Translations under genes and position numbers: made by a program | Source: Bacteroidia bacterium | GTDB lineage: Bacteria > Bacteroidota > Bacteroidia > Bacteroidales > Azobacteroidaceae | DNA: 8,089 bases | Direction: 5' to 3' | Assembly (NCBI GenBank): GCA_025999115.1 | Contig: BNWW01000079.1 | Span: 1 to 8,089, forward strand | The notes under the pieces: model-generated | The model's database searches: none | What the model saw: only the letters and a program-made list of their open reading frames with translations | Told to the model about the DNA's origin: nothing | Shown: positions 648-8,074 of the stretch, one piece after another | Layout: every line of letters starts with the position of its first letter | Numbering within the stretch: position 1 is the first letter of the stretch

Positions 648-685
648 TGATATACCTCGGAGATATGGAATGTCTAATAAAATTA

Positions 686-897
686 ACTGCTTATCCCCTT
701 TGGTCAAGTAAATTGCCTGAAAGGCAGAATTTTCATAACCGCAGGTCGTTGACCTGCGGTGAAAAACAGTATATATGCGACTGCCTGAAAGGGCTCTTGC
801 TACTTACCGCAAACTGCGCTATCGCTTGTATGCGGTTATGAAAATTCTGTCCTTTCAGGACAAAAAAACACAAACTTGACCGAAGGGGATAAGCAGT
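686..897. mobile_element. 212-bp element with long terminal inverted repeats (MITE-like)
   Basis: Outer arms 686-709 and 874-897 pair over 24 bp with a single T:G wobble. After an unequal interruption (710-715 against 860-873), inner arms 716-743 and 831-859 pair over 28 bp with one bulged base. The two arms are thus about 60 bp each around an 87-bp core. The core holds a further perfect hairpin (738-760), and short CCTGAAAGG or CCTTTCAGG palindromes occur in both arms and once in the core. It has no coding capacity for a transposase, so if mobile it would be moved in trans. Immediate flanks (AATTA and AATAA) are similar but are not a clean target-site duplication. Alternatives are a REP/BIME-type repeat or a structured RNA. 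Confidence 0.6.
738..760. repeat. Perfect 10-bp hairpin inside the inverted-repeat element
   Basis: ACCGCAGGTC at 738-747 and GACCTGCGGT at 751-760 are exact complements around the loop GTT. Part of its left arm (CCGCA) is also used in the long pairing with 831-836, and a third ACCGCA copy lies at 806-811. Mutually exclusive folds are therefore possible. No T-tract follows. Confidence 0.7.
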
Positions 898-979
898 AAT
901 AATAATATGTTCCCACCGATGTTGTAGGCGGAGTATAAGTACGGTCGGTTCCCACAGATATGCCGCCTGTTGTGCTGTT
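893..979 (-). pseudogene. Fragment of an Ig-like adhesin repeat
   Basis: On the minus strand, 29 codons read N-S-T-T-G-G-I-S-V-G-T-D, then TYTPPTTSVGTYYYYC. This matches the end of an Ig-like repeat common in large Bacteroidota cell-surface proteins, where a G-T-s-Y-T-P-P-T-t-s-x-G-T-x-Y-Y-Y-x motif closes each domain; the attribution is from family knowledge, not a search. The fragment ends at the Cys codon, exactly where the inverted-repeat element begins (897). Upstream of it no related coding sequence continues past about 980. A normal repeat is 80-100 residues within a protein of many hundreds, so this is a small remnant. The frame also continues into the element (L-S-P-S-V-K-F), giving a meaningless hybrid ORF. 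Confidence 0.5.
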
Positions 980-1486: not shown

Positions 1487-3469
1487 TTACTTCTTTATTA
1501 ATTTAGTAACCCTATTTCCTGCTTTTACCAAATATACGCCTGCGGGCAACACACCGATGTTGATGTTTTCGGTTTTAGTCGTTACAATCATTAGTTCGCG
1601 TCCCGACAAATTGGTAATTGTTACCGTTTCGCCTGCTGATATGCCGGCTATCGTTATCTCGTCCGTTGCGGGATTGGGATAAACGATGAACGGAGGCGTT
1701 TCAACCGTACCGATGCCGTTCGGAAGATGAGTTGTAAATGTAGCGCCTTCACTTGCGGGAGAAGCCAGATAATCGGCTGTTTCGGCAAGACGGGCTTGGA
1801 ACGTGTAAGCCGTGCCGGGCGTGAGTCCGGTAAATGCGGGCGAAGTTTGCCAAACGCCTTCATCCATGCTGTATTCTGCGCCTGTGATTGCGGTTAATGT
1901 TATGCTTGCTTCCGTAATGCTTGACGAAACAGGTGCAGCCGGTGCGGTTTGCGTTCCTTTTTGTACCGTCAGTTCTATCACGCCGTTTACAGCAATGGCT
2001 TCCGTTTCATTCACTGCATTGACTGCCGTGATAGACGACGGAACGGTGATTGCCTGTGCAACAGCGTTTGCCGTTGTGGGTGTTCCGCTGAGGGTAATAC
2101 GCACACTGTTGTTGTCGGTGCGCTCGCTTGTTCCGGCGGTAATGCCTGCGGGCAGATTGCTCACTGCAAAATCTTCATTCACAATTACATCGGCATAACG
2201 GCTTCCGCGAAGCGTATAGGTGAGCGAAGCCTCTGCAATCGCTTCTCCTACGGTGAGATTGTCCAATCCCTGAGCCGAAACGCTTACATAATTGTCGTAG
2301 TCCACCGTTATGTTGTGATTGGAAAATGCGCTCCAAAGACCTTTCGCATCTTGCACCCTGAGATTGAGCACATAATCGTCTTTCGGAACATTCAACAAAT
2401 CAATGGATTCGAGTAAAAACACCGCGACCGGATCGGTGAGCGACACGCTGATTTTGTTTTCCTGATTGGTATCAAGCCAATATTCGTAAGCCACAATTTT
2501 GTTTTCGGCAACCGTAGCGTTTGACGCTTTGTAGAACGGTTTGCTTACAATACTGCTCCATACGCCCTGCGCATCGCTTGCACGGAATTTGAGTGAGTGC
2601 AATCCGGCGGGCAGGGTGGCAAGTTCCAAGATCTCGTTCAAGTCGAGTATTGCCGTTGGTGCGGTGTGTGTGGTCGTGCGATTTGCCACGTCTGCATCAA
2701 ACCAATATTCGTAAGTCGTAATCTCGTTATCGGAATTGTTTCCGAACGACGGCTTGTAGAAATGGCGAGACACAATTTCACTCCAAACGCCTTGCAAATC
2801 GCGTACTCGCAATTTCAGCGAGTGCAATCCGGCGGGCAGAGTCGCAAGTTCAAATGTTTCGCTTACATCCAATACCGCTGTGAGTGCGACCGACTTTGTA
2901 GTGCGACCGGCAAAATCCGTATCCCACCAGTATTCCCATCCGGTAATCTTATTGTCGGGGAATGTAATGTCTTCGGGTTTGAAGAATTGTTTCGATACTA
3001 TACCGCTCCAATTGCCTTGCGAGTCGTGTACGCGAAATTTGAGCGAGTGCAATCCGTCAGGAATGGCAGCAAAGTCCAATGCTTCGCTTACATCTAATAT
3101 CGCTGTGAGTGCTACCGTCCTTGTTTCGCGACTGTCGTAGTTCGTATCCCACCAGTATTCCCATCCGGTAATCTCATTGTCGGGGAATGTAATGTCTTCG
3201 GGTTTGAAGAATTGTTTCGATACTATACCGCTCCAATTGCCTTGCGAGTCGTGTACGCGAAATTTGAGCGAGTGCAATCCGTCAGGAATGGCGGCAAAGT
3301 CCAATGCTTCGCTTACATTCAATACCGCTGTGGGTGGTGCTACCGTCCTTGTTTCGCGACTGTCGTAATTCGTATCAAACCAGTATTCCCAGCGGTCGAG
3401 TGTGTTCTGCCCTGTTGCCGGAAGCAGAAAGCACATCGCCATGATTAAACTGTATATAAGTCTTTTCAT
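1487..3469 (-). CDS. T9SS-exported protein with five 75-aa repeats, Ig-like and FN3-like regions
   Basis: The 660-residue product has a signal peptide (residues 1-20, hydrophobic core LIYSLIMAMCFLLPATG, predicted cleavage before Q21). Five repeats follow, starting at residues 27, 103, 178, 253 and 328, each of the form [WY]-E-Y-W-x-D, then L-P-x-G-L-H-S-L-K-x-R, D-x-Q-G-x-W-S and I-V-S-x-x-F-x-K; the fifth is diverged. Residues about 393-503 look like an Ig-like beta-sandwich. Residues about 507-580 look like an FN3-like domain (Y-S-M-D-E-G-x-W-Q and F-T-G-L-T-P-G-T-x-Y-T-F). The tail (about 593-660) is a type A T9SS sorting domain with FIVYPNPATDEITI, LPAGVYLVKAG and a terminal KLIKK. Such cargo crosses the outer membrane by T9SS and is usually anchored or released by the PorU sortase. 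No catalytic motif is seen; an adhesive or structural role is inference. The start is the ATG at 3469, 12 bp after the previous stop; a TTG three codons upstream is less likely. Confidence 0.93.
   Translation of the reverse strand: MKRLIYSLIMAMCFLLPATGQNTLDRWEYWFDTNYDSRETRTVAPPTAVLNVSEALDFAAIPDGLHSLKFRVHDSQGNWSGIVSKQFFKPEDITFPDNEITGWEYWWDTNYDSRETRTVALTAILDVSEALDFAAIPDGLHSLKFRVHDSQGNWSGIVSKQFFKPEDITFPDNKITGWEYWWDTDFAGRTTKSVALTAVLDVSETFELATLPAGLHSLKLRVRDLQGVWSEIVSRHFYKPSFGNNSDNEITTYEYWFDADVANRTTTHTAPTAILDLNEILELATLPAGLHSLKFRASDAQGVWSSIVSKPFYKASNATVAENKIVAYEYWLDTNQENKISVSLTDPVAVFLLESIDLLNVPKDDYVLNLRVQDAKGLWSAFSNHNITVDYDNYVSVSAQGLDNLTVGEAIAEASLTYTLRGSRYADVIVNEDFAVSNLPAGITAGTSERTDNNSVRITLSGTPTTANAVAQAITVPSSITAVNAVNETEAIAVNGVIELTVQKGTQTAPAAPVSSSITEASITLTAITGAEYSMDEGVWQTSPAFTGLTPGTAYTFQARLAETADYLASPASEGATFTTHLPNGIGTVETPPFIVYPNPATDEITIAGISAGETVTITNLSGRELMIVTTKTENINIGVLPAGVYLVKAGNRVTKLIKK
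1490..1693 (-). other. T9SS type A C-terminal sorting domain of the last gene
   Basis: The final 68 residues carry the family hallmarks in order: the Y-P-N-P-A-T-D-E strand at the domain start, the N-L-S-G-R-E-L middle strand, the L-P-A-G-V-Y-L-V-K strand, and a short basic C-terminus after the last beta strand. In characterised Bacteroidota this domain directs export through the type IX secretion translocon and is removed at the cell surface. Confidence 0.92.
2306..3391 (-). repeat. Five tandem ~225-bp coding repeats
   Basis: The units encode 75-76 residues each and begin at about 3391, 3163, 2938, 2713 and 2488 (minus-strand order). The first two are nearly identical at the DNA level over more than 200 bp, with a few substitutions and one 3-bp difference that adds a proline in unit 1. 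Units 3 and 4 are moderately diverged and unit 5 strongly so. The gradient implies recent duplication at the N-terminal side and older copies toward the C-terminus. Such repeats can expand or contract by recombination. Confidence 0.92.
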
Positions 3470-3481
3470 CTCATACAAATA

Positions 3482-4555
3482 TTAATTGGGTTGTGCAATT
3501 GCTCTGAAATTGAGTTGTAATTGTCCTGTGCTATTGGTTTCCGGCGATACATTTGCATTTTGAATATAGGGGTGCGAAGGTATCCAGCCGTTTTTGGCAG
3601 GATAAAGTCCGCCATAAATACCTACCTGCGTGCCGTCGGTGCCGAGATAATTGGTGGCTGCAGCAAGGAGAAGGTGGTAATTGTGCGTATAGTCAAAAAC
3701 TTTTCCTGTTTGATTGACAAATACGGTATTTGCAGGAATGCCGGTAGCAGTATTGTAATAATTACCGTCGGTATTTATGGGATTAAGTCCATAATGGACA
3801 CTTCCTCCATAGGGAGTCATAATCACAAGATTATTATTAACTATGGAATTAGCAGGAGTACTGCCGCTGTTGCTACTAATGTAACAACTATAAAAAATAT
3901 TGTTTTTAATAGTATTGCCATAAGCATTACGAATTGTTGCATTGCCATTATAAGAATCATCTAAAAGGAGTATATTATTTGAAATAAGATTGTCCACAGA
4001 ATATTGTATCACACCTTGAATAATGCAATTAGTAATCAATACATTTGACGTATAAGTACTAAAACTTAAATTACCTATAAATACAGAGCCTACCAACAGA
4101 ATATTATCCGAATAAACCGTTTCGGAGGCAGCAAAAGTAGTACCACCGTTTATTTTGCAGTTTTTTACAATTAATCCATCTACTTTATTGGCTGCTGCGC
4201 TATTGCTGAGGGTTCCGGTTATTTCCACACCTTCGATATAAAAGTTTGGTACGGGCGCCGTAAACGAGATATTGCCATTGATAACGGTTTTGCTCGCCAC
4301 CCTGGAAGAATCGGGATAGAAACCGGCGCCATAGATTTTAAGCGACTTTTGAAAAGCGGCAGGCGGAGTAAAGCCGCCGCCGGGCAGATAAAGCGTATCG
4401 CCGTTCACTGCAGCGGTATAGGCTTGATTGAGCGCAGTGGCACCCGAAAAAAGCGTTGTGGTACCTTCGTGGTGCAAGGCAACAGGCGCCTGCGCCATCA
4501 TGTTAATTGAAATTCCGGCGAACAAGAGCGCCAGAGCATATTTTATTGTTTTCAT
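3482..4555 (-). CDS. Secreted right-handed beta-helix protein, paralogue 2
   Basis: The product has 357 residues with a signal peptide (MKTIKYALALLFAGISINMMA) and predicted cleavage before Q22, giving a mature start Q-A-P-V-A-L-H-H. A front block (residues 31-96) contains N-G-D-T-L-Y-L-P-G-G-G-F and V-I-N-G-N. After it come rung-like segments rich in N-x-x-I-x-N, such as FYIEGVEITG, GLIVKNCKING, SNVLITNCIIQG and YGNTIKNNIF. These indicate a pectin-lyase-like parallel beta-helix. The last 55 residues (Y-L-G-T-D-G-T-Q-V-G-I-Y-G-G, then the N-F-R-A-I-A-Q-P-N end) form a separate conserved module. There is no T9SS sorting domain and no obvious Asp or Arg catalytic set, so an enzymatic role is not supported. 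It is a tandem duplicate of the preceding gene, 41 bp away. The ATG at 4555 is chosen over an in-frame TTG at 4600, which would add 15 residues encoded by intergenic repeat sequence and put the signal peptide in the wrong place. Confidence 0.9.
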   Translation of the reverse strand: MKTIKYALALLFAGISINMMAQAPVALHHEGTTTLFSGATALNQAYTAAVNGDTLYLPGGGFTPPAAFQKSLKIYGAGFYPDSSRVASKTVINGNISFTAPVPNFYIEGVEITGTLSNSAAANKVDGLIVKNCKINGGTTFAASETVYSDNILLVGSVFIGNLSFSTYTSNVLITNCIIQGVIQYSVDNLISNNILLLDDSYNGNATIRNAYGNTIKNNIFYSCYISSNSGSTPANSIVNNNLVIMTPYGGSVHYGLNPINTDGNYYNTATGIPANTVFVNQTGKVFDYTHNYHLLLAAATNYLGTDGTQVGIYGGLYPAKNGWIPSHPYIQNANVSPETNSTGQLQLNFRAIAQPN

Positions 4556-4570
4556 TTGTATAATTTTTTT

Positions 4571-4602
4571 AATTGTTAATTCGTAATTGTTAATTGTCAA
4601 TT
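4571..4602. repeat. AATTGTTAATT direct repeats between the beta-helix genes
   Basis: AATTGTTAATT occurs exactly at 4571-4581 and 4585-4595 and is followed by a variant, GTCAATT, at 4596-4602. The stop codon of the upstream beta-helix gene (TGA, complement of 4597-4599) lies inside the last variant. Similar AT-rich strings are frequent between Bacteroidota genes. It leaves 41 bp between the two genes and accounts for the spurious 15-residue upstream extension of the downstream gene. Confidence 0.75.
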
Positions 4603-5631
4603 GCTTTGTGCTTGTGTTTTGAATCCGGTTTGCAACTTGCCGTCGCTGTTGGTTTGTGCCGGTACATCCGCTTTTTGAATATGGGGCGAAGAAGGAATCC
4701 AGCCTTCTTTCACCGGGTGGTATCCGCCATAAATACCAACCTGTGTGCCGTCGGTACCGAGATATTGAGTGAGTACGGCAGGCAAAAGGTGGTAATTATG
4801 CTCAAAATTGAACGCATTGCCTGTTTGATTGACAAAGATTGTATTTACAGGAAAACCCAAAACGGCATCGAAATAATTGCCATCGGTGTTGATTGGAGTT
4901 GTGCCATAGTTGGGAGTTCCGCTCGCAAGAAAGAGATTGTTTTGAACAGTCTCACTGGAAGAATAAGAGACAGGATTCGTACCAATAAAAATATTGTTCC
5001 GAATCGTATTCCCATAATTACCGGAATTGAAAGCACGATTGGAAACCAACATTAGATTATTGGCAAACAGATTATTGGTAGAACTGTTAATAGTCCCTTG
5101 AATAATACAATTGGTAACCAATACATTAGAAGTATAAGAAGAAAAGTTCAAGGAGCCTAACACACAGTTTGTCAAAAGTATATTATTTGAAAAATCTGTT
5201 GCTGAGGCATAAAAATCTACTGCACCATTTATTTTGCAGTTTTTCACAATTAATCCATCTACTTTATTGGCTGGTGCATAATTGCTGAGGACTCCGTTTA
5301 TTTCCACACCTTCAATATAAAAGTTTGGTACGGGTGCCCTAAAATAAATATTGCCATTGATAATGGTTTTGCCGGTAATTTGCGCAGAGTCGGGGTGGAA
5401 ACCCGCTCCAAAAATAGTGAGCGACTTTTGAATGTCAAGAGCCGTAAAGCCCCCGCCGGGCAGATAAAGCGTATCGCCGTTCGCTGCAGCGGTATAGGCT
5501 TGTGTGAGTGCGGTGCTTCCCGAAAAAAGAGTGGTGGTACCTGCGTGGTGCAGGGCAATAGGCGCCTGCGCCGAAACGCTGAGTGAAAACAAGGCGAAAC
5601 ATATCGCCGTGAGGAATGGAATTTTTTTCAT
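4597..5631 (-). CDS. Secreted right-handed beta-helix protein, paralogue 1
   Basis: The product has 344 residues. The signal peptide (residues 1-21, ending S-V-S-A) is followed by Q22-A-P-I-A-L-H-H. The conserved N-terminal cap (residues 31-95: T-T-T-L-F-S-G, N-G-D-T-L-Y-L-P-G-G-G-F, L-T-I-F-G-A-G) leads into about seven short Asn-rich rungs: 105-113, 124-136, 148-159, 167-179, 185-195, 206-215 and 226-235. The C-terminal module at 290-344 contains Y-L-G-T-D-G-T-Q-V-G-I-Y-G-G and ends in A-Q-S-N. The fold is that of parallel beta-helix (pectin-lyase-like) proteins, but I see no catalytic residues that would name a lyase or hydrolase. It lacks a T9SS tail, unlike the flanking cargo genes, so it may be periplasmic or exported by a signal in the C-terminal module. 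It closely matches the next gene in cap and C-terminal module but differs in the later rungs. The ATG at 5631 follows an A-rich leader. Confidence 0.91.
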   Translation of the reverse strand: MKKIPFLTAICFALFSLSVSAQAPIALHHAGTTTLFSGSTALTQAYTAAANGDTLYLPGGGFTALDIQKSLTIFGAGFHPDSAQITGKTIINGNIYFRAPVPNFYIEGVEINGVLSNYAPANKVDGLIVKNCKINGAVDFYASATDFSNNILLTNCVLGSLNFSSYTSNVLVTNCIIQGTINSSTNNLFANNLMLVSNRAFNSGNYGNTIRNNIFIGTNPVSYSSSETVQNNLFLASGTPNYGTTPINTDGNYFDAVLGFPVNTIFVNQTGNAFNFEHNYHLLPAVLTQYLGTDGTQVGIYGGYHPVKEGWIPSSPHIQKADVPAQTNSDGKLQTGFKTQAQSN

Positions 5632-5701: not shown

Positions 5702-8074
5702 TTATTTCTTTACTACAATCTTACTGCTCAAAACTTCGTTACCTGTCTGTACTTTAACCATATATACACCGGCAGGCAATGTTGAAACGGCTATTTTTTC
5801 TTTCACGGCTGTTTCACGTTTCAGTAATTGCCCCGTTAGCGAATAGATTTCTACATTGTCGATAGGCGTTGCCGACTGCAGATAGAGATAGTCTGAAACC
5901 GGATTGGGATAGAGTGTCAGTGAGATATTCCGGCTTATCGGTGCAATGCCGGTCGGATGGCTTCCAATGACTTCCGTATCCGTGATTTCGTAGTTTATAT
6001 TACCCAAGTTCATATTTCCGGAGGACAGGGTAACGGCATTGAGCGATGTGATGGGTTTTCCCGGCACATCAATCAACACATTATAACTACCTTCTGCCAA
6101 ATGGTCGAAACTATAGTCGCCGTCTGCTCCGCTTTGGGTGGCGGCAATGAGCGTTCCGTTTGATCGATTAACCAAATACAATGGATAGAGATCCTGATTG
6201 TCGGCTCGCAACGGGTTTGACGAATGAACGAAGTTTTGCGTAACCGTTCCGCTGATGGATCCGGTGTTGGTGGTGGGCAACGCGAGCGGTAAAGCGTTAA
6301 GCGCCAGATTGTATTGTTCTGCATTATCGGTACTGAACACGACTGCTGTAGCATCTTCCCATGTCAATGCGGATGGATAATAGGTATTTGTTGCATTTAC
6401 GGTTTCGCCTATCGCTTTCAGGTAATAAGTGCCTTCGCCTGCGGAGAAAACAGCGGTTCCATTAGCAGCGGTTTTTGTAGTATCCAACACCAATCCGTTG
6501 TCGGTTTGCCTGTAGAGTTGAATATCAACGTTGGCTTCTTGAGCGTTTACCTTAGGATTAACGGTTAGGTTGTTTGTGCGAGAAAACAAAGTAGTGGCAT
6601 TATCAACCAATCGTCCGTACTTTTCTCCCGATGCGTGCAGGGCAATAATATTGGAATAAGAGTCGTAATATTCCGGGCTTTCGAAATCCGGAATTTCGAC
6701 AAGTGTAGCGCCTGTTTCCGTGAGAATCAACAAGCCTTTTTCTCCGACTTCTGCTTTAAAAAAAGCCAATTCAATCGTTCCGCTTTTAGTAATATTGTTA
6801 CGAAATGCGTTCACGAATGTCCAATTTTCCGGCGGTGTTACGGTTTTATAAACAGAAAAATCGTCGTTGAGAATGGTAATCGTTCCGTTTGCTTCTTTCC
6901 GGACGATTTTGATGTTTTGCGCATCGTCTTTCAATACTTGGGTATAAGCGGTTACGGCTGTCAAATCAGGCAAGGAATAAATGCTGTCGTAGCCAAGAAA
7001 ATAATCTTTTTGTTGGGATGGAAGATATACCGCGCTATTCAATTCATAATAAAGATACCCTTGCTTCTCTTTAATTAAATTGCCGTTCTCGTCAACCAAA
7101 TACGATATCTCATCACTTCCTACCTGCTGGTAATTTTCAATTATTGAATAATTAATAAAATGTGTATAATACAACTTATTTCCTCCGCCAATCGGCTTGT
7201 ATGAAAGGGCAGTATTAATCCCTAAATTATTATTTTTCTCGGGAATAGTAAAATTTCCATTCAATGTTTTATACACCGAATAATCCTTATTATAGATGGT
7301 CATTTTAAGCGCTTGTTCCATCGCACCAAACTGACCATGATAATATAATCTGAGATTATTACTCTCCGTAGTAATGCGCTCTTCTCCATCAATGGTATAA
7401 ATGCCTGAAGTTTCAGTGCCGGTGGGGAAGACTTTCTCCTCTTGTCCTGTGGCAACGTCGTAGATATGACCCGTTTGTACGTTGCCATCTATCCACCAGC
7501 CGTTCACCTCTCCATTATCGTTGTAGCGAAAGAGGGTATCTCCCCAACTCTGAATTTGAGTTGCCAATTTGGGTTTGCCGTCGTTGTAAAAAACCTTATA
7601 ACCCCTCCATGAAGTTTCGTAAGTGCCTATTACCTCGTTGGCTTCGTTGAGGATATGCAGTTTATCCCAAACCGTTTGTATGCCCTCTTCGTCAAATTCA
7701 AATGGACCTTCCACATTGAAAATGCTAAAATATTCCTTTTCGCCGTTACTTTTTTTATTTTCAGCTATTTCAACGCCTCCATGATGAACAAACAGGTAGA
7801 ACTCCGCCGGTAGCGTATATTGGAATTTTTTAAACAAACTGAAATCAGGGTTGTAAACATTGATTTCAGCAGGCGATGGAGCCGGATTTTCGTAATCGGG
7901 CTGAGTAAACAGCACTTGTGTGAATTTCTCTCCGGCTACAGGCAACTCTGTCTTGCCGCTCCAATTCGTATTCTCATTATTCAAACTTGCTCCTGCCTGA
8001 TAGCTTTGAGCATTTACGGTATTTGCCATCCAGACAAATACACAGCCAATTAAAAATAGTTTTTTTGTTTTCAT
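5702..8074 (-). CDS. Large T9SS-exported surface protein of unknown function
   Basis: The product has 790 residues. The signal peptide (MKTKKLFLIGCVFVWMANTV, then N-A) is cleaved before Q23. Residues about 24-500 are a beta-rich region I do not recognise. Three times it carries a short motif, [YL]-N-x-D-[FY]-S-[LV]-[YF]-K, at residues 74-82, 261-269 and 403-410, spaced roughly 190 and 140 residues, which hints at a repeated or propeller-like architecture. Residues about 504-592 and 604-697 resemble carboxypeptidase-regulatory-like (prealbumin-like) beta-sandwiches: L-K-A-I-G-E, T-Y-Y-P-S-A-L-T-W-E-D-A-T in the first, and G-S-I-S-G-T-V-T-Q, D-G-D-Y-S-F-D-H-L-A-E-G-S-Y in the second. Residues about 717-790 are a type A T9SS sorting domain (LTLYPNPVSDYLYL, VEIYSLTGQL, STLPAGVYMVKV, ending VVKK). 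It is the first gene of the four-gene cluster. The ATG at 8074 sits 15 bp from the window edge in an A-rich leader, so its promoter is not visible. Confidence 0.93.
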   Translation of the reverse strand: MKTKKLFLIGCVFVWMANTVNAQSYQAGASLNNENTNWSGKTELPVAGEKFTQVLFTQPDYENPAPSPAEINVYNPDFSLFKKFQYTLPAEFYLFVHHGGVEIAENKKSNGEKEYFSIFNVEGPFEFDEEGIQTVWDKLHILNEANEVIGTYETSWRGYKVFYNDGKPKLATQIQSWGDTLFRYNDNGEVNGWWIDGNVQTGHIYDVATGQEEKVFPTGTETSGIYTIDGEERITTESNNLRLYYHGQFGAMEQALKMTIYNKDYSVYKTLNGNFTIPEKNNNLGINTALSYKPIGGGNKLYYTHFINYSIIENYQQVGSDEISYLVDENGNLIKEKQGYLYYELNSAVYLPSQQKDYFLGYDSIYSLPDLTAVTAYTQVLKDDAQNIKIVRKEANGTITILNDDFSVYKTVTPPENWTFVNAFRNNITKSGTIELAFFKAEVGEKGLLILTETGATLVEIPDFESPEYYDSYSNIIALHASGEKYGRLVDNATTLFSRTNNLTVNPKVNAQEANVDIQLYRQTDNGLVLDTTKTAANGTAVFSAGEGTYYLKAIGETVNATNTYYPSALTWEDATAVVFSTDNAEQYNLALNALPLALPTTNTGSISGTVTQNFVHSSNPLRADNQDLYPLYLVNRSNGTLIAATQSGADGDYSFDHLAEGSYNVLIDVPGKPITSLNAVTLSSGNMNLGNINYEITDTEVIGSHPTGIAPISRNISLTLYPNPVSDYLYLQSATPIDNVEIYSLTGQLLKRETAVKEKIAVSTLPAGVYMVKVQTGNEVLSSKIVVKK
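5705..5926 (-). other. T9SS type A sorting domain of the first gene
   Basis: The final 74 residues contain the ordered hallmarks Y-P-N-P-V-S-D-Y, V-E-I-Y-S-L-T-G-Q, L-P-A-G-V-Y-M-V-K-V and a terminal I-V-V-K-K. The layout matches the domain at the end of the fourth gene (Y-P-N-P, L-S-G-R, L-P-A-G-V-Y-L-V-K), supporting export of both proteins by the same machinery. Confidence 0.92.

Follow-up and report, generated by a model that had tools for sequence, protein, structure and literature searches.

The question raised by this locus is what kind of element occupies positions 686-897 of an 8,089-nt stretch of DNA from a Bacteroidia bacterium (GenBank assembly GCA_025999115.1, contig BNWW01000079.1), a stretch that is called the window below. 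A reading made from the sequence alone had proposed a discrete non-coding element of 212 bp and had left the choice between a miniature inverted-repeat transposable element (MITE), a dispersed repeat of the repetitive extragenic palindromic (REP) type and a structured RNA. The first two proposals were both supported, one nested in the other, whereas the third was not. The element is probably nested and doubly non-autonomous: a Y1 (HUH) transposase element similar to TnpA-Y1 subclass 1.2, reduced to a gene-less miniature and built like a REPIN (a pair of inverted REP units), within a MITE with ends of the IS1595 type.

The element lies in a gene-poor part of this Bacteroidota contig, carries no gene and is overlapped by chance open reading frames (ORFs) only. 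Its discreteness was borne out: it is bounded by 24-bp terminal inverted repeats (TIRs) with one mismatch between them, which are the outer arms described earlier, copies exist in other genomes, and the flanks beyond the TIRs differ from copy to copy. The unequal interruptions between outer and inner arms are also as described, with 6 nt (710-715) on one side and 14 nt (860-873) on the other, and so is the perfect hairpin in the core (738-760; 10 bp with a loop of 3). The inner arms measure 28 nt (716-743) and 29 nt (831-859), with one extra base. One count had to be corrected: the motif ACCGCA or TGCGGT is found four times in the element instead of three (ACCGCA at 738 and 806, TGCGGT at 755 and 831). 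The inverted structure cannot be ascribed to chance, given both the folding energy and the length of the inverted pairs. The predicted RNA fold has an energy of -114.9 kcal/mol (z -14.3) and the DNA fold a z of -13.7, and 0 of 200 shuffles were as low in either case. When pairs with at most one mismatch and within 260 bp are counted, the longest inverted pair of the element measures 21 bp, and 100 Markov-shuffled versions of the window gave no more than 16 bp.

The outer layer was traced with a 20-base piece of the arm. A scan of genome contigs gave 17 stretches, all Bacteroidota by title, in eight genomes: a Tannerella sp. metagenome-assembled genome (MAG; G001), Proteiniphilum (G002), a Bacteroidales MAG (G003), Dysgonamonadaceae (G004), a Bacteroidia MAG (G005), Cyclobacteriaceae (G006), Prevotellaceae (G007) and Prolixibacteraceae (G008). 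The full 24-mer adjoins transposase fragments with no mismatch at two places in G002 and two in G003; the left TIR of the window, ACTGCTTATCCCCTTTGGTCAAGT, differs from the edge of the IS1595 fragments by C for T at position 16. Two of the G002 fragments exceed the NCBIfam cut-off for IS1595 and contain matches to both its zinc ribbon and its DDE domain, the latter of which is also matched by the G003 fragments. A partner transposase with matching ends, which had been expected to identify the mover, is therefore present in G002 and G003, but it was not found in the Tannerella MAG, which holds most of the composite copies. In that MAG, the 24-mer (up to six mismatches) occurs in 18 of 23 loci, which had been fetched for matching the element. 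TIRs without the inner module were seen in G005, G006 and G007. A 41-bp palindrome of G007 (L006/L107) consists of little but two IS1595-type TIRs head to head and looks like an empty shell.

According to PMC8101967, 8-bp duplications are usual for the IS1595 family. A perfect 8-bp target duplication flanks three of the eight two-ended elements among the fetched loci and the window (L056, L103, L106), and a further element (L015) has one as well. Among the complete elements that carry the module (L055, L056 and the window), the duplication is present at one, L056 in the Tannerella MAG. The window element has IS1595-type ends and, as judged by its sequence, belongs with the IS1595-type MITEs. 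The outer layer is ordinary.

The inner module consists of two units that face each other, each of them built as H1, ATTTTCATAA, H2 and, in some cases, H3. H1 is a stem around GAA, the box ATTTTC(A/G)TAA that follows it is nearly fixed, and H2 (CCGC...GCGG) is separated from H3 by a spacer. An alignment was made of 28 of the 44 units, with near-duplicates and one unit without H1 left out. The named stem pairs hold in 92.0% of the cells. Shuffles reach 85.0%, and slid versions, a control that favours the named structure since this was drawn from the same 28 sequences, no more than 48.4%. Six of the 12 stem pairs vary on both sides, and the covariation score of 0.241 (0.123 in shuffles) was reached by 0 of 500 shuffles. 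A covariance model of the unit, R1, was made from this alignment. It matches the left unit at 713-759 (E 1.4e-17) and, on the minus strand, the right unit at 807-862 (E 3.8e-12), both of which are themselves rows of the model.

Searches with the whole element separated the two layers. BLAST matches in G001 begin at the TIR, those in G003 cover query positions 30-160 or less without the TIR (131 of 212 query bases, E 4.4e-17), and those in G004 are mostly inner pieces, again without the TIR. An element of the G001 type is present on contig C35 of G004 (L088); as both genomes share the sample label Pq454, this may be a binning error. Judging by their sample names, several of the hosts may live in insect guts. 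Among 296 genomes of the phylum, an exact inner 18-mer was found only in the genome on which that search was centred. Plasmid and phage collections gave no match to the element. No viral contig matched the inner pattern, and two matched the TIR pattern, at a stretch common to both that no element surrounds.

The inverted unit pair was found at 32 distinct places in various shells, after repeats of one place had been removed by hand. The window copy has IS1595 ends on both sides. Of nine places in G001, eight have a TIR: two on both sides and six on one side, where the other side is cut by a contig end in five cases and gives no match in one; the ninth has none. At the six places in G004, ends of another type (S2) are present on both sides in three, on one side in two and absent in one. 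The 16 places in G003 show three further signatures: S3 on both sides at seven and on one side at four, S4 on both sides at two, S5 on both sides at one and on one side at one, and a chimera (L078, contig C223) in which a single module is flanked by S4 at one end and by S3 at the opposite one. Together, G003 and G004 contribute 22 places at which the module lacks IS1595 TIRs. Since S3 to S5 were written from the copies that they classify, this tally is a count of recurrence and not an independent test. The assignment of S2 to the ISL3 type is based on a 55-aa fragment of a transposase next to an S2 end in G001, which exceeds the PF01610 cut-off, while the NCBIfam matches of the same fragment fall below theirs; S3 to S5 have no assigned transposase. 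S2 ends (at most one mismatch) occur in all three module genomes (27, 6 and 3), with 0 for the reversed pattern; S3 ends number 14 in G003 and 0 in the other two. With the S3 end set at GGAAC/ACTCC, the four complete copies show TTA on both sides (two), TTTA (one) or nothing clear (one). The window itself holds a second palindrome at 387-442 (28+28 nt, no spacer, 96% complementary), which may be a bare S2-type MITE, as its edge TTTTTGAGGTGC is identical to that of the ISL3-type shell S2 of G004.

The first hint of a link to Y1 transposases came from G005, where hairpins of the GCCCTTTCAGGGC type surround a Y1 gene. A search with R1 over 119 genomes of the order (E 1e-4) found matches in at least four: at least 48 in G003, at least nine in G389, at least eight in G372 and at least one in G384. 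The eight units of G372 surround an ORF of 125 aa, with six units to one side of it and the remaining two to the other, and the encoded protein matches Y1_Tnp (E 1.1e-23) and is assigned to IS200/IS605 by NCBIfam. Of 247 genomes of the order, 84 contain relatives of this protein (E 1e-20), with one to six copies each. R1 was then applied to 38 Y1 loci, namely 30 loci of these relatives and eight found earlier. Matches below E 0.001 were obtained at L243 (G372), L245 (G581), L244 (G569) and L258 (G498), and seven more loci gave weaker matches only. At L245, units flank the Y1 gene on both sides (E 2.8e-9 and 1.6e-8) in the order H1-box-H2-H3, gene, H3-H2-box-H1, and this locus may be a compact model of what the inside of the window element once was. 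At the four loci, the nearest unit is on the plus strand to the left of the gene (3/3) and on the minus strand to its right (4/4), so that the units face the gene; those of the window are oriented likewise. Ten control stretches from five Y1-bearing genomes (100 kb, unmatched for intergenic content) gave a best R1 match of E 1.0 and no H1-type hairpin, compared with 37 such hairpins in 95 kb, at 15 of the 30 Y1 loci. A weak R1 match (E 0.6) lies at 7871-7904 of the window, outside the element. Two loci of G389 (L238, L240) hold short box-H2-box palindromes with neither clear H1 hairpins nor IS1595 TIRs.

The Y1 proteins can be placed by their motifs. Y---Q--HH was found in all 30 relatives read and at 59 of 67 Y1 loci. 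The first residue of the HuH motif is D in 20 of the relatives, N in nine and E in one, where the table of PMC6006769 gives DH[IV]H; the W motif was readable in 14 of the 30 and is WQ, as in that table, in nine of them. The two closest proteins (G372, G581) have NHIH and WA instead, and these proteins are therefore described as TnpA-Y1 subclass-1.2-like.

In the mechanism that we propose, the 24-bp ends would be used by an IS1595-family DDE transposase supplied in trans, which would mobilise all 212 bp and generate the 8-bp duplications; the H1-box-H2 hairpins, on single-stranded DNA, would be the target of a Y1 enzyme. The inner pair may be what remained of a Y1 element that lost its transposase gene and kept its two inverted end units. 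This miniature would have entered, or passed between, several shells, and recombination within the many module copies may swap shells, as the one chimera suggests. The anatomy of the element and the existence of its relatives are observed, whereas movement by either enzyme, the sequence of nesting, the loss of the gene and the exchange of shells are inferred. On a more general view, subclass 1.2 would possess a cognate end unit of three hairpins, the gene-less pairs of which spread inside MITEs of several DDE families (IS1595, ISL3-type and others), one DNA being movable by two chemistries and the inner copies being the sites at which shells are exchanged. On this generalisation we are almost evenly divided, leaning slightly against it.

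Several observations weigh against the nested origin. No complete insertion sequence (IS) with both ends was seen, as the fragments in G002 and G003 stop at contig ends, and G001, G004, G005 and G007 yielded no IS1595 transposase, although all four are MAGs. The 8-bp duplication is missing at the window copy and at four of the seven other two-ended elements (L055, L066, L104, L107). At the window, its absence may be due to age or to shell exchange; for this reason, membership in the IS1595-type MITEs is claimed by sequence, and an insertion of the window copy itself is not claimed as shown. On the inner side, only four of the 38 Y1 loci have an R1 match below E 0.001. The eight earlier loci, which include Y1 genes of the module-rich G001 and G003, gave no R1 match, nor did the hairpins at the Y1 gene of G005, and G004 yielded no Y1 gene. 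H1-type hairpins lie within 700 bp at 21 of the 59 loci with the Y---Q--HH signature and at none of the eight others (p 0.049), a weak difference in which 21 is a lower bound, as the pattern misses variants such as that of L245.

If the whole were a single IS1595-type MITE whose arms are long and imperfect, with the inner hairpins as its ordinary interior, no second origin would be needed, and TIRs and module do always lie close together (5-12 nt) in G001 and the window. However, the module is found apart from these TIRs in G003 and G004 and around Y1 genes, and the TIRs are found apart from the module in three other genomes. A simple long-arm MITE was rejected on these grounds, and a single origin, which could be saved only if the copies in G003 and G004 had descended purely vertically from IS1595 MITEs that were since lost, is improbable. 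Somewhat more weight, although still little, can be given to the idea that REP-like hairpins have clustered by chance near mobile genes and are functionally unrelated to the Y1 enzyme, the shells and Y1 genes being intergenic landing sites. This would fit the minority of Y1 loci with recognisable units and gains from the unmatched controls, but it accounts poorly for the constant orientation toward the gene at the unit-bearing loci and for the full order of H1, box, H2 and H3 on both sides at L245.

The element could also act as a transcript, either through inward terminators or as a structured RNA by which its neighbours are insulated or regulated. Three terminator-like sites are present in 500-1100, compared with 0.6 in shuffles, and in two of these, which point inward from the two sides, H1 precedes the T-rich box; the stems covary as well. 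Nevertheless, covariation is equally expected of hairpins that are recognised as single-stranded DNA, the window has 0 matches in Rfam at gathering thresholds, and the inverted pairs are dispersed in many unrelated flanks. A structured RNA is hence unsupported, the transcript explanation as a whole is very hard to believe, and terminator activity could be a side effect of the hairpins rather than an alternative to the nested origin.

Among known systems, the element shares its 24-bp ends with IS1595 transposase fragments, and some of its relatives share the 8-bp duplication of IS1595 ISs and MITEs; unlike those, it contains a separate repeat pair and no deleted IS1595, and the window copy is without the duplication. 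The Y1 genes resemble subclass 1.2 in their Y---Q--HH motif, their occurrence in Bacteroidota and their few copies per genome (PMC6006769). That subclass was reported without REP repeats (Quentin et al. 2018, PMC6006769), whereas several genes here have flanking units and the closest proteins have NHIH and WA. A gene-less inverted pair of hairpin repeats that also occurs beside a Y1 gene recalls REPINs and the REPs associated with RAYTs, the REP-associated tyrosine transposases (PMC3116915). The unit described here differs in its three parts with a fixed box, and its Y1 protein falls on the IS200 side by NCBIfam. No GTAG-type foot is conserved in the alignment of 28 units, and the units have a Y1 neighbour in the same genome in G372 but not in G001, G003 and G004. 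The inner pair is built like a RAYT REPIN and is not classed as one. Nesting as such is not new, since REP pairs were reported to lie regularly within longer palindromes in Anabaena and others (PMC3733652); the outer palindromes there have no transposase tie, while one shell here is IS1595-ended and one is ISL3-type. BrickBuilt of Porphyromonas gingivalis (PMC4596501) is likewise a Bacteroidota MITE with an internal repeat, although its inside is a minisatellite instead of inverted hairpin units. In the available open-licence literature, neither a REP pair inside an IS1595 MITE nor REP repeats for subclass 1.2 were found, which is a weak absence.

Features of the element at window positions 678-905.
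Feature	Positions	Strand	Remark
Left flank TAAAATTA and right flank AATAATAA	678-685 and 898-905		5/8 positions alike
Left 24-bp TIR, IS1595 type, ACTGCTTATCCCCTTTGGTCAAGT	686-709	+	Inverted pair; edge match to IS1595 transposase fragments
Inner module, inverted pair of Y1-associated units	715-861	.	Gene-less; found without IS1595 TIRs in G003 and G004, also beside Y1 genes
H1 hairpin, left unit, GCCTGAAAGGC	715-725	+	Covarying stem
Conserved box ATTTTCATAA, left unit	729-738	+	Nearly fixed among 28 aligned units
H2 hairpin, left unit, CCGCAGGTC GTT GACCTGCGG	739-759	+	A738-T760 pair extends the stem
H3 remnant CTGCCTGAAAGGGC	781-794	+	Partner half missing in the window copy; read against other copies
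H2 hairpin, right unit, variant with AAGCGATAGCGC loop	807-835	-	Model R1
Conserved box, right unit	836-845	-	TTATGAAAAT on the plus strand
H1 hairpin, right unit, GTCCTTTCAGGAC	849-861	-	
Right 24-bp TIR, IS1595 type	874-897	-	Inverted pair

The rest of the window is mainly taken up by four large protein genes on the minus strand, two of which have a Por_Secre_tail domain. For the 790-aa protein, one relative was found among the best 7988 candidates in the protein collection, AGMMS50262_21650 of 'Bacteroidia bacterium', which is 96% identical. The gene of 663 aa contains in-frame 225-bp repeats (2526-3336), and tandem copies of ATTCAGACAA lie just before its end (1437-1490). Two adjacent genes at 3482-5631 have long direct repeats in common, about 1.08 kb apart and 82-89% alike in the longest, and are apparently a tandem duplication; no Pfam match to the duplicated part was found. 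An inverted repeat around CCCGCATTGC/GCAATGCGGG at 1370-1405, followed by a T run, is terminator-like. A remnant of an ISAzo13-like transposase extends across two short frames at 1065-1299 (PF07592, E 3.1e-5, below the curated cut-off).

Two aspects make the element of interest: the tie between its inner layer and an orphan Y1 subclass, and the recurrence of that layer in several shells. The Y1 enzymes of subclass 1.2 have been described without a DNA substrate, for which the unit is a concrete candidate. Nesting could be a way for a single-strand element to spread on double-strand transposons, and it would account for one palindromic inside recurring in different MITE-like shells.
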